A stretch of 64,000 nucleotides of DNA, from positions 1-64,000 of the forward strand of contig CAMVKN010000006.1 of NCBI GenBank assembly GCA_947168045.1, written 5' to 3'. This stretch comes from an uncultured Prevotellaceae bacterium. Lineage in GTDB: Bacteria; Bacteroidota; Bacteroidia; Bacteroidales; Bacteroidaceae. The notes beneath the pieces were generated by a model. That model searched no databases and was not told the origin of the DNA. It saw only the letters and a program-made list of their open reading frames with translations. Position numbers and translations under genes: made by a program. Of this stretch, positions 11,864 through 39,745 are shown piece by piece (within the stretch, counting starts at the first letter, position 1; each line of letters opens with the position of its first letter).

Positions 11864-14806
11864 TTATTTGATTACAATTCTTTTTCCGTTGTTAATATAG
11901 ATACCCTTGGTGCTGGGCTTGCCATTCAGGCGCACACCGTCGAGCGTGTACCAGCCGTCGAACGAGAGTTCGCCCGTCTTGGTGTCAATTTCTCCGATAG
12001 CGGTCAGGTCACTATTGCGACTGACGAGGCGCACGGTGATGCTCTGGGGCAGGTCGTCGGTGGCGGCTGCGCGGGTCAAACCGCGAGCCGGGGCCGGGGC
12101 CTCCGTGCCGACATACGACAGATAACAGCGCATGGGCTTGATGAAGGCACCTGTAGTGAAGCGGACGAACTGCCCAGCCTCAACGGTTGCCGCGCCGCCA
12201 GCCTCGGTGCCACTTTGGGCTGCAAAGCCGTAGTCATTGCTTGCAACTGCCCAACTCTTCCCTTTATACGTGCCGTGGAAATTCCAGGCTACATCCGTCG
12301 TGGCGCCGCCATAGAGACCATCGTTAGCCGTCGTGGGCTGCAGCGTCACGACTCCGCCCGTCATGTTCACGATGTTCGGGAACGTCATCGTCGTCGCGTC
12401 ATCCGGCATGAACAGATACGGCGTGTTGGCCGTCAGCGTGGTCTCAGCCGTATTGCCCGGCTCCTGCATCGTGCAGACCCACTTGTGCAAGCCTTCGTCG
12501 TACACCACTTCCTTGAAGCCGTAGAACTTGCCGCCCTCGTTGTCGTTGCAGATATAGTTGAACGGCAGTATCACCGTCGCGGCCTGTGCTGTGTTGAACG
12601 GGCGGTTGTAGGTCACGCTCTTGATATTGCCTACCTCCTCCGTGATGTTCACGCCCACGACGTTGACGCCTGTTCCCTGATTGTTTGTGCCGTTGATGGT
12701 CACGTCGGCCCTCTCATTCCACTCATTGAAGCGATATTCCACCACTGCGTCGCCGTACTTCGGCGTGTAGTAGTTGCCGTCGTAGAGGAAGCCGTTCTTG
12801 TAGCCATCCACCATTCCGTGGTCGGTCATCGCATTGCCGAGGTTGGCGGGCGCGACGGTCGCCGTGGCTGCGGGGCGTCCCTGCCTGTTGCCGAGGATGC
12901 TGGTATAGTAGCAGTTTGTCATGTTGTAGGTCGGGTCACTGTTTGGATAGACGAACGTGAAGCAGTTGCCGCCCAGCGCGTATTTGCCCGTGCCGTATGC
13001 AGCGGGGGCGAAGAGGCAGTCGGTGAACGTGACGGTCAGATTACTTCCAAAGAGGTTTCCTATGAAGCCGCTGCAGTAGGTGGTCGCGTAGGCCTCGCTG
13101 GGGTTGTATATCAGTCCGTCATAGACGCAGCCCGTGACGGTGCAGGCGACGTTTGAGCCATACCAAAATGCGATGATACCGCCATGAAAGCCAACGCCGC
13201 TGACTGTGGTGCTGATTTCGGTGCTCACGCGGCAGTTATTGATGGTGATATTGCCCTCGGAATGGCCCACCAGACCGCCCAAGCGCTCATAGGTGCCGCC
13301 CGTGATGGTGCCGCCGACGTGGAGGTTGCTGATGGTGGCGCCATTGATGTAGTGGAACGGGGCGCAGAAGTCCTCGGCGGCAGTTCGGTTAAAGGTCAGC
13401 GTATTGCCCTGTCCGTCGAACGTACCCTTGAACGGGTGACCGCTCTTGCCTGCCATCTCCGATGAACTGACATTTCCAGCGAGTTTCACAACCTTGCCGC
13501 TGAAGCCGTCGGGAGCCAAGTCGTAGTTTGTGGCAAAGCAGAACCAGCCCCAGCCGTTGGCGGTCTTGATGGTGTACTCGTTTTCGCCAGTCTCTGCGAA
13601 GTCGTCCTCGCTGATAGAGAACGTTGCACCAATGTTGACTTCCTCAGCGGGCATGGTGAACGTGTATGTGTTGCTGCCGTTGTCGGTAATACCGCTGCCG
13701 ATGCTGTAGTTTGTCGTTGAGCCCGTCACGGTCAACGACTCTAACGTTTCACCGAACTTCGGCGTGAAGGTGATGGTAACCGTCTGTCCTTCGCCAGCCA
13801 TAGTTGTGCTTGCGTAATCATCGGTGCTGATATTGAACTGCGGATAGATGTTGTTAATGTCACTATAGGCCACTACGTGGAAACTCTGCGTCAGTGTGTA
13901 GTTCGTGCTGCCGATGGTGACAATGAGCCTCGCGGTGTAGTCGCCGACAGCATTTGGTGCATCTGAAGTGTAGTTGGTGCCGTCGGTCGTATAGCGGATG
14001 CCGTCGGTCGTGCCGTTGAGTCCCGTCTGCGTGTTGAATGCTGGCAGGTTGTGCGAGGCAGAGTAATACGTGCCGGGGCGATAGAAAGATTCAGTGGGCG
14101 GCGTGAGCGTCAGCGTGGCCGTATAGCCTGCATCGGCGAGCGAGCACGTTAGTCCGTCGCTGTGTCCGCAGGTGGCGGTCAGCGTGTTCCCTACGGCGTT
14201 GAATGTGAAGTCGTGCGAGTGCGTCGGCTCCACGTTGGGGATGTAGGTGATTATCATCTCGCATCCGGCGCTCTTGTCGATGAAGAATTTGGCATCGACA
14301 CCTAATCTCATGGTGAGGTTGCCGGCAATGCCTGCTGCATCTGTGCTGATAAAGGTGAAACTGGTGCTCTCGCCGCTGGCTCCAACCCCCGTCAGTGCGT
14401 CGTCGGTGCCGTTGTACTTCATGCCGTCGATTGACATGGAGAAAGTACTGCCTCCCTGCTGATTACTACGACCTGCCTTGGTGAACTCCACCTTCGTCAC
14501 CTTGCCATCGACATAGGGAGAAATGAAGAGTTGCACTTCATTCCCTTGGCCAGAAACAGCGGACGTTACGTTCTGTATCTCGAAAGCAGGATTGCTGTTA
14601 AGATAGACGTCCATCATTGTGCCGTTCACGGTTAGAATGGTCTTCTGCGTGTTGTCGTCAGGGTCGGTTGCCTTGATGCTCAAGTAGTCCGAAGTTAATG
14701 AGGCCGTGCTGAACGAGAATGTCTTCGTCAGTTCGACCGCTCCCACCGACTGCGCCGCCACGAGCCAGAAGGCGAGGGTGAGGATGAGATGGAATGATAG
14801 TTTCAT
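11864..14806 (-). CDS. Large secreted/surface protein with Gly-Tyr-Ile C-terminal tail; likely start at MKLSFHLILTLAFWLVAAQSVGA (ORF extends to 14929)
   Basis: Signal peptide after the longest-ORF start; C-terminus DGWYTLDGVRLNGKPSTKGIYINNGKRIVIK, resembling type-A C-terminal tails of T9SS cargo. Confidence 0.7.
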   Translation of the reverse strand: MKLSFHLILTLAFWLVAAQSVGAVELTKTFSFSTASLTSDYLSIKATDPDDNTQKTILTVNGTMMDVYLNSNPAFEIQNVTSAVSGQGNEVQLFISPYVDGKVTKVEFTKAGRSNQQGGSTFSMSIDGMKYNGTDDALTGVGASGESTSFTFISTDAAGIAGNLTMRLGVDAKFFIDKSAGCEMIITYIPNVEPTHSHDFTFNAVGNTLTATCGHSDGLTCSLADAGYTATLTLTPPTESFYRPGTYYSASHNLPAFNTQTGLNGTTDGIRYTTDGTNYTSDAPNAVGDYTARLIVTIGSTNYTLTQSFHVVAYSDINNIYPQFNISTDDYASTTMAGEGQTVTITFTPKFGETLESLTVTGSTTNYSIGSGITDNGSNTYTFTMPAEEVNIGATFSISEDDFAETGENEYTIKTANGWGWFCFATNYDLAPDGFSGKVVKLAGNVSSSEMAGKSGHPFKGTFDGQGNTLTFNRTAAEDFCAPFHYINGATISNLHVGGTITGGTYERLGGLVGHSEGNITINNCRVSTEISTTVSGVGFHGGIIAFWYGSNVACTVTGCVYDGLIYNPSEAYATTYCSGFIGNLFGSNLTVTFTDCLFAPAAYGTGKYALGGNCFTFVYPNSDPTYNMTNCYYTSILGNRQGRPAATATVAPANLGNAMTDHGMVDGYKNGFLYDGNYYTPKYGDAVVEYRFNEWNERADVTINGTNNQGTGVNVVGVNITEEVGNIKSVTYNRPFNTAQAATVILPFNYICNDNEGGKFYGFKEVVYDEGLHKWVCTMQEPGNTAETTLTANTPYLFMPDDATTMTFPNIVNMTGGVVTLQPTTANDGLYGGATTDVAWNFHGTYKGKSWAVASNDYGFAAQSGTEAGGAATVEAGQFVRFTTGAFIKPMRCYLSYVGTEAPAPARGLTRAAATDDLPQSITVRLVSRNSDLTAIGEIDTKTGELSFDGWYTLDGVRLNGKPSTKGIYINNGKRIVIK

Positions 14807-14860
14807 GTGTTTGAGCGTTGCCCGAACATTGCTTTCCCCTTCGGCCAGCGACCGTTGGTT

Positions 14861-14902
14861 CTCACACTCGGCAAAGCTCATGCGAGCATGGCTCTGCTCT
14901 CG
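14861..14902 (-). repeat. CGAGAGCAGAGC... leader element, copy A
   Basis: cgagagcagagccatgctcgcatgagctttgccgagtgtgag (minus) resembles plus-strand 57084-57122. Confidence 0.5.
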
Positions 14903-15019
14903 TTTAATTGAATGTTTCATACTCCTCATTTTGTTTCTTTTTAATTGTTCTTGTATTATGGCTACTTTATAATTCTCTCATCAAAGTCTGGTTGGGGGAA
15001 GCACTGTCAGTATGGGCAT

Positions 15020-15202
15020 AAAGAAAGCGCAGGCCCCGTCCATATTCTCCGACAGGCCCGCGACGGCCTCTATACATCTATGGTTGGAGACTGCGCTAAG
15101 GTGCGCAGTTCCAATGATGTATAGGTTGTGCTCGTAAAAACTCGTTAGAGGTCGCGGTTCGTCGGAGAAATTGAGCAATAAAAAGTCGTGTTCAAGAAAC
15201 AC
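15020..15202 (-). ncRNA. Structured leader RNA, copy 2, with terminator/antiterminator architecture
   Basis: P1 CTCCGAC..CGCGAC / GTCGCG..GTCGGAG, P2 TATACATC/GATGTATA, P3 CTGCGC/GCGCAG, terminator CGCGGGCC/GGCCTGCG + CTTTCTTT; promoter-like TATCTTTG upstream; same layout as 37418-37619. Confidence 0.7.
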
Positions 15203-32985: not shown

Positions 32986-33948
32986 TTGACTGCGATGACT
33001 GAGAAAAGCAAATATGTCCGTTTCGACTGGGCCATCAAGCGCATCCTGCGTGACAAAGCGAACAAGGAAGTGCTGGAGGGGCTCATCACTGTGCTGCTGA
33101 ATGAGCCGATAACCATCACCGATATCTTGGAGAGTGAGGGCAATCAGGATGCCCGCGAGGATAAGACGAACCGCGTGGATGTGAAGGCCAAGACCAGCAA
33201 GGGTGAATACATCATTGTGGAAGTACAGCTCACGAAGGAGCGTGACTTCTTCCAGCGCATCCTCTTTGGCACGGCCAAGAACATCACCGACCAGATCAGC
33301 AGCGGTCAGGACTACAGCGTTATCAAGAAGATATACTCCATTAACATCCTTTACTTTGACTTTGGCTGTGGCGATGACTATGCCTATCATGGTGTGACGG
33401 AGTTCATGGGCATGACGAAAACCGACTCTGTGCTGCGCTACAACAATGAGAAGGAGGAGCGCTACATCAGTGAGGACACCAGGCGCATCACCCTGCCTGG
33501 TGACGTGTTCCCTGAATATTTCCTTTTGCTGTGTAACCATTTCAACGAGGTGGCCCGCACGCCCATTGAGGAGTGGATGGAGTATCTGAAGGATGCCGTC
33601 ATCAGCGACACCACCACCACGCCGGGCTTGCAGGCAGCCCGTGAGAAGCTTGCCTACATGAGCATGACTGAAAAAGACCGTCGTGCCTACGAGGACTATA
33701 TGGTCAGTGTGCATGCCGCCCGCGACGCATGGGAGACACTCAAGGCCGAGGGTCGTGCCGAAGGCCGTGCCGAGGGTCGTGCCGAGGGTCGTGCCGAGGG
33801 TCGTGCTGAGGGTCGTGCCGAGGGTCGTGCCGAGGGTCGTGCTGAGGGTATCCTGGCAGTAGCTCGCAAGATGAAGCAGAAGGGCAAGTCTGCAGAAGAG
33901 ATTGCAGAACTGACTGACCTGACGAAAGAAGAGATAGAACAGCTATGA
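32986..33948 (+). CDS. Rpn-type PD-(D/E)XK nuclease family protein
   Basis: FDWAIKRILRDKANKEVLEGLITVLL, VDVKAKTSKGEYIIVEVQ catalytic-like motif, EGRA tandem repeat. Confidence 0.85.
   Translation: MTAMTEKSKYVRFDWAIKRILRDKANKEVLEGLITVLLNEPITITDILESEGNQDAREDKTNRVDVKAKTSKGEYIIVEVQLTKERDFFQRILFGTAKNITDQISSGQDYSVIKKIYSINILYFDFGCGDDYAYHGVTEFMGMTKTDSVLRYNNEKEERYISEDTRRITLPGDVFPEYFLLLCNHFNEVARTPIEEWMEYLKDAVISDTTTTPGLQAAREKLAYMSMTEKDRRAYEDYMVSVHAARDAWETLKAEGRAEGRAEGRAEGRAEGRAEGRAEGRAEGRAEGILAVARKMKQKGKSAEEIAELTDLTKEEIEQL
33745..33849 (+). repeat. 12-bp in-frame coding repeat (GCCGAGGGTCGT), EGRA x8
   Basis: Protein segment EGRAEGRAEGRAEGRAEGRAEGRAEGRAEGRAEG. Confidence 0.95.
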
Positions 33949-34130: not shown

Positions 34131-34304
34131 TATAAAAAGCGTAAGAACATTGCTACGTCCTTACTGGAGGCCCTGACAAAGCCTTATAACGGAGACATAA
34201 CGACATCCTCACGCCTGATTCGTGTGGAGTCGGCTTAGCTTCATTCCGTTATAGTCGAATTGTCAGGTTCCCAGTAACAAGAATAAGCACTAAACTCACA
34301 TTTC
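34131..34304 (-). ncRNA. Structured ncRNA, 6S-RNA-like rod, with own promoter and terminator
   Basis: Nested stems ttactgg/ccagtaa, cctgaca/tgtcagg, tataacgga/tccgttata, apical cgac-atcc-t-cacg/cgtg-t-gga-gtcg; minus-strand TTTG-N19-TATCTTTG at 34310-34340; GTAAG..CTTAC stem plus U-run at the 3' end. Confidence 0.7.
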
Positions 34305-37346: not shown

Positions 37347-37414
37347 TTATTTCTGAACACTAAGAAAAAATCGGAATAGCCTTGGCGGTTCCGATTTTTG
37401 TTTGTATCTTTGCA
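37347..37414 (+). repeat. 68-bp terminator-promoter direct repeat, copy B
   Basis: Same 68 bp as 36582-36649 with tatctttg instead of tacctttg; 765 bp apart. Confidence 0.95.
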
Positions 37415-37417
37415 CCG

Positions 37418-37619
37418 TCGTTCATGTGGAGACACAAAGGACGGCAGACATCTTATTGCTCAATTCCCAACCGAAACTGCAACATCGAACAAGGAATTAG
37501 AAGAGCAAAGCTTAATCCAGTTGGAGCATGCGCCATGGTGCGCAGGCTTCGGCGTATTGGATTAAGCGGGTTGTTGCAGACCTCGGTTGGGATACGGTGA
37601 GGTCTGCGCTTTTCTTTTA
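37418..37619 (+). ncRNA. Structured leader RNA, copy 1, with terminator/antiterminator architecture
   Basis: P1 CCCAACCGA..CTGCAAC (37466-37483) / GTTGCAG..TCGGTTGGG (37573-37591), P2 GCTTAATCCA/TGGATTAAGC (37510/37558), P3 TGCGC/GCGCA, terminator GCAGACCTC/GAGGTCTGC (37576/37599) + TTTTCTTTT. Confidence 0.75.
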
Positions 37620-37714: not shown

Positions 37715-39745
37715 ATGAAAAGATCTTTACTTAAAACAATGCTCCTGCTATGCGCCCTCATAGTGGGAATGAGTAGTGCGTGGGCAGAGGAAGAAACAAT
37801 AACTTTCCCCACGTCTTCAACAAACGTGGACTGTTCTTCTTTGGGTGTTAGTGTAACAGGAACACATGTGTCTGTTACTATATCAAAGGGGACGAGTTCT
37901 TACCTTGCAACTAATACAGATGGTACACGTATCTATAATGGAAATAGTATGGTGTTTACCTCGACAGACAAAAAAATTTCTAAAATTGTTTTTGCATATA
38001 AAAGAAATAAAAAACAGACAAATGGCGTATCTGCTAATGTTGGTTCATTTACTAATAAATTTACAGTAGGAAACAGCCAAGCATCAAATCTTTCTGCAAC
38101 GTGGGAAGCAAGTGATAACGAAACGGCTAGTGTTACATTTACTGTTGGGAGTGGTTCTGGTAATTATGCCCTTGAGTCAGCTGAGGTAACATTTGTAGAG
38201 GCCGTTGCTCCTACTCACACCGTTACGTTTAGTGTGAACGGTACCACAACGACAGCCACCGTTGCTGAGGGTGCAGCCATTGAATTCCCCAATAATCCTG
38301 CTGATATTAACGGCATGAAGTTCGTGGGCTGGTACACCGATGAATATACTCATGCAACAGATGCTCCATCTTTTGTTACGTCTGCCACGATGGGGGACAG
38401 CGACGTGACTTATTATGCTGTATTTGCTGAGGCAGAAGCAACAGGACAAACAGTTGAAACAAAAACGCAGACGTTACAGTATGACACTTGGACGTATAGT
38501 GGGACTACAACTAACATGACATCTTATCGTTTATTTGCTGAAAACAGCTATATCGAGTCTGCCTCTTTCGACTTGAGCAAACTTTCGAAAGTCATAGTTT
38601 ATGCAGGTACTTATGGCACTTTATCATCTGCAAATAAGAAAGTAACCGTTACTGCTGGTGAGACTACCTGGGGCAGTGCTACTTTGACAACTAATAGCGC
38701 AACAACACAAAATACTATAACCAGTAACACATCACTTTCAGAAAGTGGCAACTTACATATTGTTGCAGGTGGGGGCGATGGTGATAATAATGGTATTCGT
38801 ATCTCTAAGGTAGAGATCTTTACGAATGAACCGGTTTTTGATTATAGCAACTATTGCACAACAGTACCATCACCTGCGATTACCCTCAGCACTAATTTGG
38901 TTGAGGCTACAGCTGACGGGACAGAAAGTACCACCATCAACGTGACCTACACAGCTATTGAAACCAGCGTTGGAGTCGACTTTGTTTGGTACACAGATGA
39001 AACAGCTAATACAGCTATTACAGATGATGATGAACCCGACTGGCTTATACCTGAAATCAATTCAAGCAATAACTTGGCATTTCTTTTTGAAGAAAACACA
39101 GGTGCAGCACGCACGGCCTATATGAAGGTCTATGCCCTCGACGTCAATGGTGAAGATGTTTATTCAGAGCTGATTACCATCACCCAGGCAGCTGCCACTC
39201 TGCCTATTACCGTTTCCGAAGCTGGCTGGGCAACCTTCGCCCCCACGCAGAACGTGTCGTTCGACCCTGAGGTGATGTCTGTTTACGTGGTGACAAATGC
39301 TACGACGACGAGTGCTACGCTGCAGTCGGTGTCTTCAGTGCCTGCTAACACGCCCGTACTGATTTGCGCCGAGGCTGGAACCTATGGTCTCCCAGTGGTT
39401 GATGCTGCTACAGCTCCTACTACCAACCTTCTCCAAGTCAGCAACGGCTCAATCGTTGGCAATGGCTCCACCATCTACAGTTTGGCTAAGATTGATGATG
39501 TAGGCTTCTACCTCGTAGGCAATGGCGTGACCATTCCCGCAGGCAAGTGCTATCTGGACATAGGCACGCAGGGGCAAGGCAATGCCCGTGCATTCCTGAC
39601 CCTTGGTGGCAACACCGAGACTGGCATCACCACGGTGGCTGCTGACGCTGCCGATGGCAACATCTATGACCTAACGGGTCGCCGCGTCTCTGGTGTGGCT
39701 CGTGGCCTGTACATCGTCAACGGCAAGAAGGTCGTGCTGAAATAA
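37715..39745 (+). CDS. Secreted surface protein with InlB-like repeat and GLYIVNGKKVVLK tail
   Basis: Signal peptide MKRSLLKTMLLLCALIVGMSSAWA; GMKFVGWYTDEYTHA; C-terminal YDLTGRRVSGVARGLYIVNGKKVVLK. Confidence 0.75.
   Translation: MKRSLLKTMLLLCALIVGMSSAWAEEETITFPTSSTNVDCSSLGVSVTGTHVSVTISKGTSSYLATNTDGTRIYNGNSMVFTSTDKKISKIVFAYKRNKKQTNGVSANVGSFTNKFTVGNSQASNLSATWEASDNETASVTFTVGSGSGNYALESAEVTFVEAVAPTHTVTFSVNGTTTTATVAEGAAIEFPNNPADINGMKFVGWYTDEYTHATDAPSFVTSATMGDSDVTYYAVFAEAEATGQTVETKTQTLQYDTWTYSGTTTNMTSYRLFAENSYIESASFDLSKLSKVIVYAGTYGTLSSANKKVTVTAGETTWGSATLTTNSATTQNTITSNTSLSESGNLHIVAGGGDGDNNGIRISKVEIFTNEPVFDYSNYCTTVPSPAITLSTNLVEATADGTESTTINVTYTAIETSVGVDFVWYTDETANTAITDDDEPDWLIPEINSSNNLAFLFEENTGAARTAYMKVYALDVNGEDVYSELITITQAAATLPITVSEAGWATFAPTQNVSFDPEVMSVYVVTNATTTSATLQSVSSVPANTPVLICAEAGTYGLPVVDAATAPTTNLLQVSNGSIVGNGSTIYSLAKIDDVGFYLVGNGVTIPAGKCYLDIGTQGQGNARAFLTLGGNTETGITTVAADAADGNIYDLTGRRVSGVARGLYIVNGKKVVLK

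Follow-up and report, generated by a model that had tools for sequence, protein, structure and literature searches.

What controls the gene at 37715-39745 of the window (the whole 64,000-nt stretch of DNA analysed here), and does the segment in front of it, at 37418-37619, take part in this control as an RNA? The original prediction had proposed that the segment is a new type of regulatory leader RNA, in which a closing helix and a terminator exclude each other, placed upstream of a secreted-protein cassette. When the letters of the window were read again, every sequence that this proposal had named was found in its place. Comparison with relatives from other genomes indicates that the element is one member of a large family of structured RNAs, and most of what follows is drawn from that family.

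Parts, relatives and surroundings of the element

All features of the element at 37418-37619 (copy 1) lie on the plus strand. A promoter -7 element of the Bacteroidota TAnnTTTG type, TATCTTTG, is seen in the sequence at 37405-37412, and a variable hairpin, P0, is predicted by folding close to where the 5' end of the transcript is expected (37418-37444); inspected homologs also carry a hairpin at this position, differing in sequence. The stretch TTATTGCTCAATT (37453-37465) leads into a set of nested helices recognised by covariation. Here P1 pairs CCCAACCGA (37466-37474) with TCGGTTGGG (37583-37591), P1b pairs CTGCAAC (37477-37483) with GTTGCAG (37573-37579), P2 pairs GCTTAATCCA (37510-37519) with TGGATTAAGC (37558-37567), and P3 pairs strand e, TGCGC (37529-37533), with strand e', GCGCAGGCTTC (37540-37550), a helix first drawn as 37529-37533/37540-37544. 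The U-run TTTTCTTTT (37610-37618), supported by T enrichment in homologs, closes the element. The folding energy of copy 1 corresponds to a z of -6.06 and that of the second copy, taken as 15020-15202, to a z of -5.81, and in neither case did any of 200 shuffles fold as well.

A blastn search for relatives reached 15 genomes of the same genus, from which 14 copies were aligned by hand-checked extraction; RNAalifold reported compensatory changes in 15 pairs of this 14-copy alignment. MAFFT alone misaligned P2, and the alignments were rebuilt with covariance models. Model R1 matched in 96 of 200 same-genus genomes, at 1-8 copies per genome, and, across the order, in 19 of the 395 genomes searched. 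A draw of 399 genomes from the whole phylum serves as negative control for this model, which matched only the window's own genome there. Model R2, made from a broader alignment, matched in 45 of the 207 genera of the order and in 11 genomes outside it. Model R3, made from divergent members, matched in all 20 chosen genomes, with a maximum of 22 matches in one of them, and in 10 of 40 genomes drawn from class Bacteroidia, the window's genome being among the 40. The covariance-model search that had been suggested for this element has thus yielded many covarying homologs across Bacteroidales. Named records in the order are chiefly rumen Prevotella assemblies, and cultured carriers include Segatella copri iAQ1173 and Prevotella sp. 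tf2-5. Two copies (L162 and L220) lie on contigs of Methanobrevibacter- and Lachnospiraceae-labelled assemblies, and these contigs are probably mis-binned Bacteroidales DNA.

The window itself holds three copies, at 37453-37616(+), 15020-15181(-) and 34132-34293(-). Behind copy 1, the gene at 37715-39745(+) encodes a protein of 676 aa with a Listeria-Bacteroides repeat (PF09479), a signal-peptide-like N-terminus and a C-terminus similar to a secretion-system sorting tail. The second copy (161 bits with R1, 156 with R2) precedes a gene at 11864-14929(-), whose product of 1021 aa contains a divergent InlB-type repeat (PF18998); NCBIfam gave no match on either protein. The third copy is divergent and was inspected in sequence. 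It was not matched by R2 and scored 46.3 bits with R3, at an E-value (2e-6) that is rough, as are all E-values of these models, owing to a shortened calibration; divergent members independently retain the pairings. It has its own TATCTTTG promoter upstream, the helices P1 (TTACTGG/CCAGTAA), P1b (CTGACAA/TTGTCAG), P2 and GCGTGAG/CTTACGC, and then a U-run. No intact gene was found within 400 nt downstream of this copy, and the region 3' of it resembles a gene remnant. Elsewhere in the window, the ORF at 32986-33948(+) has, close to the C-terminus, a long tandem repeat of the RAEG type. R1 finds five copies in the window's genome. Four further divergent copies (L335-L338) were observed there at C5:13140-13331, C46:7274-7438, C18:52418-52572 and C17:39507-39672, each with a same-strand ORF at most 75 nt away; three of these ORFs exceed 1000 aa.

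Throughout the family the order is constant: TAnnTTTG promoter, RNA, U-run, same-strand gene. Of 136 homologs, 120 have the promoter motif within the preceding 110 nt, mostly 33-39 nt before the RNA, as against 49 of 685 control windows. At the site of the U-run, a 15-nt stretch contains on average 7.9 T in homologs, compared with a background of 4.25. In 128 of 131 loci an ORF on the same strand begins no more than 400 nt downstream, and the median distance is about 70 nt, which bears out the leader position originally claimed for the element. In the stretch that separates RNA and gene, the motif is found in 9 of 136 cases, which is the background level. Because a promoter stands upstream of the RNA, a same-strand ORF lies close behind it and promoters are not in excess between the two, transcription most likely reaches the downstream gene by way of the RNA.

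Export-signal-like N-termini, called by a simple hydrophobicity rule in an order-level set that comes mostly from one genus, are present in 102 of 124 downstream proteins (82%) compared with 86 of 221 control ORFs (39%; p 2e-15), and in 12 of the 38 ORFs of the window. The Pfam matches of the downstream proteins are diverse and include BspA-type leucine-rich repeats (11 proteins), BACON, InlB-type repeats, sorting tails and one EcoRI-type methylase. The secretion-system sorting tail was rejected as a common downstream feature, being recognised by a simple pattern in only 7 of 100 complete proteins. Divergent members precede also response regulators, a dihydrofolate-reductase-like protein and TonB-type receptors (N-termini judged by eye). 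The expected association with secreted-protein genes thus holds for Prevotella-type members but not for divergent ones, which stand before response regulators and enzymes as well.

Covarying helices and the predicted terminator

In an alignment of 80 homologs, P1 is paired in 99.8% of cells, with both-side change in all 8 counted pairs, P1b in 99.5% (both-side change in 7 of 7 pairs), P2 in 92.7% (9 of 9 pairs) and P3 in 87.8%. On the strand of the element, G.U pairs outnumber A.C mismatches by 165 to 29, as is expected of a transcribed RNA. In alignment A3, G.U pairs are almost absent from P1 (6 of 593 cells) and P1b (0 of 560), and account for 69 of 628 cells in the terminator stem described below.

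Outside the nested set lie several pairings that the original prediction did not contain. Hairpin hp1, which excludes P1, is formed by strand a, TTGCTC (37456-37461), and strand a', GAGCAA (37503-37508), and is extended by S2, in which AATTCC (37462-37467), its end overlapping the P1 5' strand, pairs with GGAATT (37493-37498); the P1b 5' strand doubles as its apical loop. The a.a' pairing is kept in 96.5% of cells among the 80 homologs, with some compensatory changes, and reads GGCTC/GAGCC and TAGCTC/GAGCTA elsewhere; in other genera it is 98% paired with UA, AU, GC and GU types. S2 is supported by the fold and by partner permutation (native versus permuted partner, z -4.0 in 27 non-redundant homologs), and hp1 as a whole reaches z -11.8 by partner permutation in 58 divergent homologs. 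The helix d.d', which is CCATA/TATGG in most homologs and CGTAT (37553-37557) with ATACG (37592-37596) in copy 1, is paired in 95.6% of cells (80 homologs) with compensatory types. P4 is a helix of three pairs, GGY/RCC, in which GGT (37569-37571) and ACC (37580-37582) flank the P1b 3' strand as their loop; its Y-R pair changes jointly (CG 39, UA 28, UG 11). Since P1b joins the loop of hp1 to the loop of P4, it can be a loop-loop contact. Both d.d' and a.a' are kept in 16 sequences from other genera, and P1, P1b, P4, d.d' and e'.t in five very divergent matches. Since the search models held only P1, P1b, P2 and P3, there is no circularity in the covariation seen for a.a', d.d', e'.t and P4.

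For the terminator, the comparison leads to a revision. A fold incompatible with the nested helices is supported, as had been proposed, but covariation is lacking for the arm assigned to it, GCAGACCTC (37576-37584), which lies within the 3' strands of P1b and P1. The conserved terminator would instead be a long-range stem between e' and strand t, GAGGTCTGCGC (37599-37609), recognised by covariation and pairing energy. The local arm pairs perfectly with GAGGTCTGC (37599-37607) in copy 1; as a family-wide terminator it was rejected, since it is paired in 74.8% of cells against 74.7% in shuffles (80 homologs) and gives z -1.0 in the 58 divergent homologs. The stem e'.t is paired in 92.4% of cells, with both-side change in 9 of 10 pairs (80 homologs); 0 of 500 shuffles are as high, pairing is 27-62% when the strands are slid, and partner permutation gives z -10.5 (58 divergent homologs). 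In copy 1 it consists of 11 consecutive pairs with -18.4 kcal/mol, compared with -15.9 kcal/mol for the local arm, and among the 80 homologs it surpasses the local arm in strength in 70, and P3 in 72. The stem encloses about 48 nt, which is above most intrinsic terminators. The local terminator of copy 1 could act as well. Because e'.t covaries and the local arm does not, we infer that the conserved switch is a three-strand exchange, in which e' pairs either with e, forming P3 as the antiterminator, or with t, forming the terminator.

Covariation thus supports two incompatible structures, a long P1-P1b-P2-P3 hairpin and a 5' hairpin combined with the long-range terminator. Strand e' belongs to both P3 and the terminator, and S2 overlaps P1. 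The helices a.a' and d.d' have no bases in common with P1, P1b or P2, and could be pseudoknots of a single fold instead of parts of a second state.

Pairings with the region 5' of the core were also observed. In the predicted fold of copy 1, the GCAGAC at 37444-37449, just upstream of the core, can also find a partner in GTCTGC of the terminator strand, a pairing that was not seen as a family-wide feature. In divergent members such as L339, L341 and L342, the part of the transcript 5' of the core ends in AAAGCG(T), which is complementary to ACGCTTTT in the terminator strand and U-run; a pairing of the two may act as an additional antiterminator, in the place of hairpin P0.

A candidate leader-RNA switch and its alternatives

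The element is probably a cis-acting transcription attenuator, i.e., a leader-RNA switch, that belongs to a large family of class Bacteroidia. As in attenuators with an intrinsic terminator, a stem is followed by a U-run and a competing structure (P3) uses the terminator strand. In the proposed mechanism, RNA polymerase would initiate at the TAnnTTTG promoter and hp1 (a.a' and S2) would be made first, followed by the hairpin P2/P3. Once transcribed, the 3' strand of P1 could displace hp1 to give the long P1-P1b-P2-P3 structure, in which P3 retains e', so that the terminator would be blocked and the gene read. In the alternative state hp1 would stay, with P1b perhaps retained as a contact that links the loops of hp1 and the small hairpin P4, d would pair with d', and e' would quit P3 and pair with t before the U-run; transcription would then stop about 100 nt upstream of the gene. 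The same cellular signal would bias this choice at all copies; a small molecule is the most likely candidate, a protein a possible one. When folding is followed on the growing chain, hp1 and P2/P3 form first and P1 takes over once base 37591 has been made. The minimum-energy fold without effector is P1-P1b-P2-P3, which counts against the attenuator reading, as do the span of about 48 nt within e'.t, the chance that a.a' and d.d' are pseudoknots of one fold and the local terminator of copy 1.

A narrower version of this reading is that of a strict orphan riboswitch, whose conserved core (GAA and ACCUCGAA-like stretches, P4 and the pseudoknots) would bind one small molecule and in this way set P3 against the terminator at every copy. 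We regard this as a serious possibility that falls short of being probable. The element lies in the leader of its presumed target gene, on the same strand and behind a promoter, and the comparative evidence points to a conserved structured core joined to an expression platform with exclusive folds. A complex fold in which several pairings cross, unpaired stretches that are conserved, and the presence of many copies in one genome, in front of unrelated genes, recall the riboswitches that sense signalling compounds; the downstream genes, however, share no pathway that would point to a ligand. A shade more tentative is the proposal of a class-wide Bacteroidia riboswitch superfamily that answers to one general signal by a strand-exchange terminator within a pseudoknot, helped by a loop-loop contact that is possibly present in both states. 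Some genomes carry more than 20 copies of the RNA, and, if the proposal is true, much of the exported-protein repertoire of Prevotella would be tied to a single effector.

It is rather unlikely, although conceivable, that the attenuator is controlled by a protein, an RNA-binding or elongation factor such as a NusG paralog that stabilises one of the folds. One trans-acting factor would suit the many copies before unrelated genes, and Bacteroidota possess specialised antiterminators of the NusG type (UpxY). The name UpxY occurs in PMC12691694 and PMC7593976. Against control by such a factor, the genes downstream of the element are not capsule operons and the inspected loci contain no adjacent conserved regulator gene. 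A structured RNA of about 200 nt flanked by a promoter and a U-run might also be a stand-alone small RNA that lies upstream of genes by chance, but the regular same-strand ORF close behind it and the background frequency of intervening promoter motifs make this very improbable. Least credible of all is a folded element at the DNA level, a recombination site or mobile repeat, as its palindromic character, its many copies and its position before accessory-type genes might suggest. The copies are not near-identical but diverge through compensatory changes, the bias of G.U over A.C indicates selection on one transcribed strand, promoter and U-run are fixed, and BLAST searches of plasmids and phages together with a viral-contig pattern scan revealed no similar DNA, which argues against a mobile element.

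Relation to known RNA classes

No match of Rfam 15 was found in the window at the gathering threshold, in agreement with the original prediction, which recognised no known Rfam class in the element. At E <= 10 copy 1 gave only unrelated low-score matches and the 15020-15202 copy none; in 20 divergent loci the gathering threshold returned only a tRNA gene elsewhere in the locus, and E-value searches on divergent members gave no credible match on the element. The Rfam models of T-box and 6S / 6S-Flavo RNAs matched neither the window copies nor divergent members. Known RNAs from the same phylum include Bacteroidales-1 (RF01693), 6S-Flavo (RF01685), Flavo-1 (RF01705), Bacteroid-trp (RF01692) and DUF805b (RF02914), and none of these five models matched the element at E <= 1 (E <= 10 for the window copies).

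In its general design the element can be compared with several known systems. UpxY- and LoaP-type processive antitermination leaders likewise provide leader-based control of envelope genes; unlike them, the present RNA is not followed by capsule or polyketide operons. T-box and amino-acid-leader attenuators also have two exclusive folds, one of them with a U-run terminator, but here the antiterminator would be P3, and the 5' strand of the terminator is the 3' strand of P3 itself, reaching across about 48 nt. In contrast to 6S RNA, the leader element is multi-copy and is followed by a same-strand gene. Orphan riboswitch candidates such as the crcB and pfl motifs share with it the position in 5' leaders, a conserved core with pseudoknots, a predicted terminator that overlaps the structured region and unrelated downstream genes, whereas its sequence and fold match no Rfam family, unlike such Breaker/Weinberg-type candidates (PMC2864571). 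The papers searched contained no named equivalent, although an unnamed listing elsewhere is possible, and an unnamed candidate in the supplement of PMC8040213 could overlap. The kind of element, leader-RNA attenuator or orphan riboswitch, is known; the family and its strand-exchange arrangement appear to be new, and the idea of a new leader RNA family is strengthened by the lack of an Rfam class together with the many covarying homologs.

Few riboregulators are known in Bacteroidota despite the dominance of this phylum in gut and rumen. An abundant, apparently undescribed leader RNA that stands before many genes, in Prevotella mostly those for exported proteins, would offer a testable handle on how the surface repertoire is switched. 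Should the effector prove to be a small molecule, it could be a signal that has so far escaped recognition, and the exchange of the three strands e, e' and t makes a clear mechanistic prediction. In one further locus (L311), a DUF805b element (RF02914) at 1697-1732 lies directly 3' of a copy of the RNA, which suggests two leader elements in tandem.
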